This document shows positions 3,370-4,267 of a stretch of 5,440 bases of DNA, piece after piece (positions within the stretch are counted from its first letter, which is position 1; each line of letters opens with the position of its first letter). A program made the translations under genes and the position numbers. The notes beneath the pieces were generated by a model that saw only the letters and a program-made list of their open reading frames with translations, was not told where the DNA came from and made no database searches. The DNA comes from Chloroflexota bacterium (GTDB taxonomy: Bacteria > Chloroflexota > Anaerolineae > Anaerolineales > UBA4823). Location: positions 1 through 5,440 of the forward strand of contig DAOVXM010000217.1 of NCBI GenBank assembly GCA_030636125.1, in the 5' to 3' direction.

Positions 3370-3374
3370 GGATT

Positions 3375-3411
3375 AAAAAAGACGGCCGGACGTGGGGGGG
3401 GCACGCCCGGC
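3375..3411 (-). terminator. Intrinsic terminator on the minus strand
   Basis: On the minus strand GCCGG-G-CGTG pairs with CACG-T-CCGGC around a seven-C loop, ten pairs if the single G-U wobble is allowed. CGTC and six Ts follow (3375-3380). On the plus strand the wobble becomes an A-C mismatch and no T run follows, so the signal points to minus-strand transcription. It would end the candidate small RNA, and any read-through from the NYN gene. Confidence 0.65.
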
Positions 3412-3515
3412 AATCTAAGGAGGTCCACCGGATGCCATCAACACGTTTTCCGTGGTAAAAGCATTTCCGGGGAACGACACCTGTTTTATACCAGTAATAA
3501 GGGAGGGCAGGTGTC
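3375..3515 (-). ncRNA. Candidate structured C-rich small RNA with anti-Shine-Dalgarno stretch
   Basis: Read on the minus strand, this stretch starts exactly 7 bases after TATAGT (3523-3528) and ends in a GC-rich hairpin and six Ts. Three stem-loops are visible: GACACCTG/CAGGTGTC (3508-3515 with 3476-3483); CCGG-AA-ATGC with GCATCCGG (3461-3470 with 3428-3435), holding an inner CACG/CGTG hairpin; and the terminator. The unpaired parts are C-rich: CCCTCCCTTA in the first loop, TTCCCC between stems, GGACCTCCTTAG before the terminator, and seven Cs in the terminator loop. ACCTCCTT is complementary to a consensus ribosome-binding site. Structure and motifs are seen directly; existence of the RNA and pairing with mRNAs are inferred. 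It could instead be a structured 3' region of the CAP-LysM transcript. I do not recognise a known family. Confidence 0.5.
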
Positions 3516-3522
3516 ACTATGT

Positions 3523-3528
3523 ACTATA
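3523..3528 (-). promoter_or_regulatory. -10 box for the candidate small RNA
   Basis: TATAGT on the minus strand ends exactly 7 bases before the first base of the first stem (3515), the usual distance to a transcription start. No convincing -35 is seen 16-18 bases further up. An overlapping TATAAT at 3525-3530 on the plus strand also lacks a -35. Confidence 0.35.
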
Positions 3529-3600
3529 ATCGATTATTTCCAGAAATTCATTAAAATTAGATTAGAGTTGTCCGATTTGTAATTGTGTGTTATTTTGGCA

Positions 3601-4089
3601 TCACTGGTCGGCTTTATTCCCGCCGAAAATCTCGAGCCAGTCATCTACCTCATCTGAGCTAAGGGCTGAATCCTCTAAATCTCCAGACTCCAAGAAATCG
3701 TCTTCAATTCCAATTATCTCTTTTGCGAAAACTTCAGAGGATATCACCTGGGCTTTAGCAGCTTTAGCCGAGGCCTGGACCGCGCGGTCGGAACTCACCA
3801 CACTCCAATTTCGGGCTGCGCGTCCCATGCGCTCCAAGCGGGTGCGTATGGCGTCATCGGCGGTCTGCCCAGCGCGTACGAAACGAGCTGTGACGACGCC
3901 ATAGTTACGAGTGCGTAGCTGCCCTGGTGGAGCATTGTCAAAGTAAACTTCTACTTTTTTCCTGCTGCGACGGCAGAATTCTTGCAACACCTTGATCAAC
4001 TGGTTCTCATCATCTATGTCGCTCAGAGATAGACCAGGAATTTTGGGAATTAGATTATGACCATCGATAATATAAGGCATAGGAGCCAT
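3601..4089 (-). CDS. NYN domain protein, YacP-like (PIN-fold RNase family)
   Basis: From the ATG at 4089 this gives 162 residues. The N-terminus MPYIIDGHNLI matches the opening strand and first acidic motif of YacP-type NYN proteins. Further acidic positions are visible in VEVYFDNAPPG, in GQTADDAIRTRLE and in VVSSDRAVQ, the expected set for a PIN-like metal-binding site. The family includes the Bacillus ribosome-associated endoribonuclease Rae1, so RNA cleavage is a fair guess, not shown here. The C-terminal 40 or so residues are very acidic and probably flexible. The frame extends to a TTG at 4116 with no ribosome site; ATG 4080 is also possible. I prefer 4089, with GGGAAAG about 12 bases upstream. 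It is a single gene pointing away from the lamin-tail gene, with a repeat copy between them. Confidence 0.87.
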   Translation of the reverse strand: MAPMPYIIDGHNLIPKIPGLSLSDIDDENQLIKVLQEFCRRSRKKVEVYFDNAPPGQLRTRNYGVVTARFVRAGQTADDAIRTRLERMGRAARNWSVVSSDRAVQASAKAAKAQVISSEVFAKEIIGIEDDFLESGDLEDSALSSDEVDDWLEIFGGNKADQ

Positions 4090-4143: not shown

Positions 4144-4267
4144 CCTAGTGTTCCGTCAAATGTGATTGTTAATAAAGAATAGATCGTGAACGGAACACTT
4201 TAAGCTTTGTCAAGGATGTATTAACCTGGAAATTGAGTGCAACTTTCATCCTTGACAAAGCACTAGG
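4144..4267. repeat. Dispersed twin-hairpin repeat, copy 2 (compact)
   Basis: This 124-base element consists of two adjacent hairpins. The first pairs AGTGTTCCGT (4147-4156) with ACGGAACACT (4190-4199), perfect over 10 bases. The second pairs GCTTTGTCAAGGATG (4204-4218) with CATCCTTGACAAAGC (4247-4261), perfect over 15. Its outermost 22 bases (4144-4165 and 4246-4267) are also inverted repeats of each other, 16 of 22 matching, both ending CCTAGTG/CACTAGG. No clear target duplication is seen. It lies between two divergent genes. The form suits a MITE-like or REP-like element (inference). Confidence 0.75.

Follow-up and report, generated by a model that had tools for sequence, protein, structure and literature searches.

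Small RNAs (sRNAs) with C-rich unpaired stretches directed against ribosome sites are known in Firmicutes from RsaE/RoxS, and the alphaproteobacterial RNAs ar14 and SorX are of the 'cuckoo' type. LhrC of Listeria monocytogenes carries the motif CUCCC..UUUU, exists in five copies and needs a two-component system (excerpts of PMC4132741), and the actinobacterial, mycobacterial 6C/B11 pairs with ribosome sites by two C-string loops, either of which alone is dispensable for repression (excerpts of PMC10470900). Our open-access literature searches, on which the term 'not described' rests here, returned no sRNA family described for Anaerolineae, and the excerpts of PMC2864571 mention Chloroflexi solely in connection with pan and with Chloroflexi-1 (Chloroflexus aggregans). 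Here, we analyze a C-rich sRNA gene on the minus strand (3515-3375) of an Anaerolineales-like contig of 5,440 nucleotides (nt), called the window in the following, in which the taxon-named relatives of the encoded proteins are Chloroflexota.

The gene lies in a 231-base gap (3370-3600) between two convergent genes, a CAP/LysM gene on the plus strand and an NYN_YacP gene on the minus strand. A first-pass annotation, made from the letters of the window, had proposed a minus-strand unit comprising a -10 box, a 7-base spacing, a start on the first stem, a bulged hairpin and a T6 terminator, and all of these elements were found where it had placed them. The -10 box TATAGT (3528-3523; family consensus TATATT in an alignment of 61 promoters) is separated by 7 bases from the start at 3515, which sits on the first stem GACACCTG/CAGGTGTC. 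Hairpin 1 spans 3515-3476 (arms 3515-3508 and 3483-3476), and its loop contains CCCTCCCTTA (3507-3498) and TTACTGGTA (3497-3489). The bulged hairpin 2 (3475-3425) consists of an outer stem, an inner stem CACG/CGTG and the loop GAAAA, which is worn in the window compared with C5 or longer in 32 of 37 aligned members. Next comes a linker, ACCTCCTT (3424-3417), which is single-stranded in the predicted fold and complements a consensus ribosome site. The unit ends with the terminator stem (3411-3385), which is the covarying helix 3 and, as first proposed, holds a G-U pair when read as minus-strand RNA; T6 follows at 3380-3375. The C7 run (3401-3395) is the loop of this terminator hairpin, which corrects the first reading.

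Rfam 15 was scanned with the window (E up to 5) and with 16 related loci (E up to 3). At the sRNA gene, the sole matches listed were ar14 (RF02344; window, 20.8 bits) and SorX (RF02784; L018, 20.9 bits), both far below their gathering scores of 58.8 and 46.6 and with chance-level E-values of 0.97 and 1.3, respectively. The expected novelty of the gene was borne out to the extent that nothing in Rfam matched it above chance in the window or the 16 loci. The likeness to ar14 and SorX lies in a C-rich anti-Shine-Dalgarno (anti-SD) loop on the terminator hairpin. No match in the window or the 16 loci was obtained with the covariance model of 6C (RF01066) or with the models of the Rfam families LhrC and RsaE/RoxS. 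The RNA shares with LhrC a build with three CU-rich sites, represented here by the loop 3507-3498, the single-stranded stretch 3424-3417 and the terminator loop 3401-3395. According to the excerpts of PMC4132741, CUCCC..UUUU of LhrC resembles CCCUCCC-UUUU of loop 1, whereas the phylum differs, one copy per genome stands against five, Rfam gives no match, and no LhrC counterpart is noted there for hairpin 2 or for the TTAYTGGTA-like motif described below. Compared with 6C/B11 as given in the excerpts of PMC10470900, the loops, linker and terminator are different, again without an Rfam match. RsaE/RoxS, to which the first-pass annotation had likened the RNA, differs by its phylum, by the two- or three-hairpin build with C7 loops found here and by the missing Rfam match; no kinship of RsaE type was seen, and LhrC and 6C/B11 are nearer in build. 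Their build recurs here without sequence kinship, apparently as a design that has arisen independently once more.

The window copy, folded as minus-strand RNA, reaches -60.1 kcal/mol with z -5.5, and none of 200 shuffles equals it. None does so for the plus strand (z -3.5) either, so that folding favors the minus strand without fixing it. Since terminator-like sites in the window are not in excess (two, compared to a mean of 6.5 in shuffles) and the sRNA promoter is absent from the list of a sigma-70 scan, which requires a -35 hexamer, the case for the gene rests on its relatives. We fetched 80 Chloroflexota loci by their NYN protein and searched them with the 234-base gap region, which gave strong matches just behind NYN. 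A covariance model, R1, was built from 37 of 48 aligned sequences, the window included, and matched the window as well as 60 of the 80 loci, together 61 of 81 sources, at E < 1e-9, 37 of them by construction; the window match (3515-3371) reaches 118.8 bits, a score obtained by one of the 37 sequences behind the model. Six further minus-strand matches have E-values from 1e-4 to 0.16; five of these overlap or abut the gene itself, and the sixth lies elsewhere in L012. Among the whole genomes behind the loci, 38 of 41 and 25 of 39 (63 of 80) contain a match, one of them weak (G048, E 0.004), and each has a single match except G056 with a second, terminator-only one (E 0.009). When 400 Chloroflexota genomes were drawn evenly, 28 were positive at E <= 0.01, eight of which were already known from the earlier searches; 25 of the 28 reached E < 1e-6, and the three weaker positives are probably due to chance. 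Judged by these matches, the family is conserved in Anaerolineales-like Chloroflexota as a single copy per genome, with a predicted RNA of 95-154 nt.

A covariance search of related genomes, which the first-pass annotation had named as a check, revealed compensatory changes in all three stems. In alignment A3, 96.9% of the cells are paired and 18 of 25 pairs show two-sided changes, as none of 500 shuffles does; the covariation score is 0.481, whereas shuffles give 0.263 and in no case out of 500 attain the observed value, and slid controls give 0.09-0.12. Alignment A5 (59 sequences, fitted to the model) is 97.4% paired and has 18 pairs with two-sided changes, a count reached by 3 of 500 shuffles, while 0 of 500 reach the other four measures. 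Two-sided changes occur in three of the eight pairs of helix 1 (97.0% of cells paired) and somewhere in 12 of the 12 pairs of helix 3, the terminator, and the outer stem of hairpin 2 covaries between CCACCG/CGGTGG, CCGCCG/CGGCGG and AACCAGAT/ATCTGGTT. Read as minus strand, the members show 81 G-U cells versus 9 A-C cells, and this imbalance fixes the strand (these and the outer-stem counts were obtained by a script over 59 members, in which a few rows choose another helix). One clade stops after hairpin 2, which serves as the terminator there (C7 loop; T-run in several members). Based on these comparisons, we conclude that the minus-strand unit 3515-3375 is a genuine, conserved and, as had been proposed, free-standing sRNA gene with its own promoter, its own terminator and compensatory changes in all three helices. 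As far as comparative sequence analysis reaches, gene, strand, structure, promoter, terminator and conservation are established.

Concerning its function, we find it fairly probable that the gene encodes a trans-acting sRNA which is activated by an OmpR/PhoB-type regulator and blocks the ribosome sites of several mRNAs with its C-rich parts. A response regulator of this type would switch on the sRNA by binding to three half-sites, spaced at 11 bp and adjacent to the -10 box. The RNA would form a 5' hairpin, whose loop is C-rich, and a second one that in most members has a C7 loop; the full form would add the C-rich linker and the terminator hairpin. As several redundant pairing sites on each molecule, the C-rich parts may then pair with G-rich ribosome sites in several mRNAs and so exclude ribosomes. 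Transcription, the class of the activator, the pairing and the resulting repression are inferred; the counts given next refer to 61 members (the window and 60 loci). All 61 contain CCTCC somewhere in the RNA, whereas 100 shuffled sets have it in 22.6 members on average and in 30 at most, and GGAGG is found in one; CCTCC lies behind position 45 in 44 members, a C6 or longer run is present in 58, and loop 1 is C-rich by pattern in 51. The number of C-rich unpaired segments is 1.93 per molecule and 0.70 in shuffles (the window has one by the same count), and the prediction that relatives retain such stretches was confirmed thereby. For the proposed anti-SD stretch, the outcome is divided, as the core CCTCC is general but the exact octamer ACCTCCTT occurs in 8 of 61 members only and the linker is missing in a whole clade. 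When loop 1 and linker were paired computationally with 14-nt windows of 224 genes, the best duplexes were obtained where the window starts at -20 or -15 relative to the start codon (-4.9 to -5.8 kcal/mol versus about -0.9 to -3.4 elsewhere), which is compatible with pairing at ribosome sites without proving it; the C-run rows of this profile are unusable, some windows having given no duplex.

Several observations weigh against blocking of ribosome sites. A C-rich loop 1 is absent from 10 of 61 members, by a pattern which misses, e.g., TTCCC, and the two-hairpin clade has no C-rich linker. CCTCC is wholly unpaired in the predicted fold of just 30 of 61 members. Unpaired bases as a whole are not enriched in C (a share of 0.379 versus 0.371 in shuffles), while G is depleted there (0.051 versus 0.091); with more C-rich segments at a flat overall share, C is gathered into runs rather than being more frequent. 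All shuffles overstate significance, because the members share kinship. Mirrored segments pair with the SD equally well, and the 224 genes had been chosen for having an SD. Furthermore, the TTAYTGGTA-like motif of loop 1 is without an explained partner, and its extended complement is found mostly in the sRNA genes themselves. Two other ideas can be put aside: for a small peptide, no reading frame common to the members was seen, and a kissing dimer via a self-complementary loop, assessed by eye only, is unsupported by L013 and L030.

The promoters of the 61 members were aligned on the -10 box, which is misplaced in five. Relative to the first base of TATATT, they share TTCTAAT at -39, TTTTAAT at -28 and TT..GAY at -17, i.e., three direct half-sites with a period of 11 and 10 bp to the -10 box, half-sites and -10 both being strongly conserved. 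In the window, these are CTCTAAT (3567-3561), TTTTAAT (3556-3550) and TTCTGGA (3545-3539) on the minus strand, together 3567-3539. Direct half-sites at an 11-bp period close to the -10 box are the layout of OmpR/PhoB-type activators. The sRNA promoter has this layout, and a response regulator of this type is probably the activator, as a predicted class. A full weight matrix from 55 promoters gave nothing above 14 in 1.04 Mb of fetched loci (L001-L158) beyond copies of the sRNA gene. When 10 genomes were scanned by pattern for the half-sites, every one of them fell short of the reversed control, which implies that the majority of individual half-site matches there are chance, and no coherent set of genes was apparent by eye behind 20 fetched half-site regions. 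Phosphate (Pho) control was rejected as a candidate, as no sRNA-type promoter was found in 23 loci around PstS-family matches from 10 genomes.

Possible, though tentative, is membership of the sRNA in the regulon of a particular envelope-type two-component system (OmpR regulator and HAMP kinase), which adjoins it in Thermanaerothrix. In Thermanaerothrix daxensis (L116), the sRNA stands directly behind the genes of the regulator, which occupies 552-1256, and of the kinase, and the sRNA promoter overlaps the end of the latter. At regulator loci orthologous to this one, eight sites have three half-sites, an 11-bp period and 10 bp to the -10 box, seven of them preceding a secreted-protein gene ahead of the regulator and one (L190) directly preceding the regulator. 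With a matrix from these eight, the sRNA promoters obtain their highest scores exactly in the homologous register (mean -5.1, compared to -22.6 in shuffles and -10.9 at the next-best offset), and in further genomes such a site is present in four of five loci with DUF2680-like repeats. However, this matrix test is not independent, since the sites were originally selected with the sRNA matrix, in a looser scan of 2.5 million positions which also returned many unrelated places, some (L062, L071) scoring equally high. The third half-site fits weakly, only 29% of the sRNA sites pass 1e-3, and the half-sites differ in detail. Of two loci examined for Pfam DUF2680, the domain was confirmed in L192 but not in L199. 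Seventeen of 22 further sRNA-bearing genomes have no DUF2680-like repeats, with a mean score of 5.8 versus 5.2 in the antisense control (two of the 17 are represented by under 150 nt), and individual scores overlap the positive range (L296 13.7, L285 11.3, paralogue L303 17.1). No such regulator was detected at the cut-off in 8 of 30 genomes, and OmpR-like matches number 7-28 per genome; L121 has an OmpR gene with such a site, and the matches listed for this gene in the other 17 genomes reach only 31-47% identity. As the particular activator of the sRNA, the Thermanaerothrix-type system is a lead only.

A secreted, partly DUF2680-like protein gene before an OmpR regulator was observed in L192, L194-L199 and L275-L278 with a strongly conserved three-half-site promoter, and in L195 a kinase was seen alongside. 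In L303, it is the short region upstream of an OmpR paralogue which reaches the mentioned score with the sRNA promoter matrix.

The first-pass annotation had not foreseen the TTAYTGGTA-like motif of loop 1, which is about as constant as CCTCC: a loose pattern detects it in 59 of the 61 members, some of which have lost the C-run of loop 1, and the strict TTTAYTGGTA in 48. If this loop and the C-runs titrated or guided an RNA-binding protein, the RNA might work mainly via that protein, with little pairing to mRNAs. We consider such a role rather unlikely. A search for the extended loop-1 target TACCRGTAA..GGAGG in 20 genomes found no conserved target, which would agree with it: by their coordinates, 11 of 14 places (in 13 genomes) are inside sRNA genes, the other three being in G017, G021 and G030, and the reversed pattern gave six. 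On the other hand, CCTCC in every member and C6 or longer runs in nearly all form the pattern of known pairing sRNAs, and no candidate protein partner was identified.

The upstream neighbor of the sRNA in the window is the NYN_YacP gene (4116-3601, minus strand; Pfam PF05991, E 1.5e-14), which encodes a PIN-like RNase and ends 85 nt before the sRNA; its profile matches the solved YacP structure 5mq9 weakly (E 2.9e-4). Across the loci with NYN in reach, the sRNA follows NYN on the same strand at a distance of 48-140 nt (median 75) in all 78 measured, 60 of them retrieved with the NYN protein and the remaining 18 with the RNA (77 distinct places, as L253 equals L037). Two convincing members are located away from NYN. 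In T. daxensis (L116, 552-2915), the sRNA behind the regulator-kinase pair is ~7.7 kb from NYN, and in G028 (L133) there is no NYN within the 2.7 kb examined. It is a distinctly speculative thought that sRNA and YacP-like NYN RNase form one functional unit, in which the RNA would halt initiation at G-rich ribosome sites and the ribosome-linked RNase would clear the stalled messages, under envelope-stress control; if true, this would be, to our knowledge, the first case in which gene order links an sRNA to an enzyme of the Rae1/YacP type. The same synteny, including 17 NYN-linked places found by the RNA model alone, would be expected if the RNA had no role of its own and were the processed 3' end and terminator of the NYN_YacP mRNA, conserved for mRNA stability and termination. 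Such an origin is improbable, as the conserved -10 box and the three half-sites lie between NYN and the sRNA, the T. daxensis and G028 copies stand apart from NYN, and the conservation of the loops would seem to exceed the needs of a terminator. Finally, global action as a mimic of the 16S rRNA 3' end, rather than on chosen mRNAs, is suggested by ACCTCCTT being an anti-SD octamer with a general CCTCC core, but is very improbable considering the rarity of the exact octamer and the clade without linker.

A mobile or phage origin was rejected, since no NYN relative was found in viral contigs and the locus had no match in plasmids or phages. Some other elements were noted in passing. Upstream of NYN, a 16S rRNA 5' end is located at the contig edge (position 1, minus strand) in L020, L009 and L022, the match in the latter being just under the gathering score, and L068 contains a T-box leader above the gathering score (3413-3679). 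The window harbors a 76-nt direct repeat (1027-1102 and 4146-4221, 86% identical) without blastn match in the fetched loci; behind the second copy lies an inverted arm (4204-4218/4247-4261), an arrangement resembling the end of a small mobile element. A tandem 17-mer, GCCGATTGCTGCAACCT, is present at 1147-1180 in two copies (94%).

With a single-copy conserved family, a defined promoter, redundant C-rich sites and a nearly fixed synteny with an RNase, the sRNA may offer an entry into post-transcriptional control in Anaerolineae. This group is large and mostly uncultured, and the copy in Thermanaerothrix daxensis makes tests practical.
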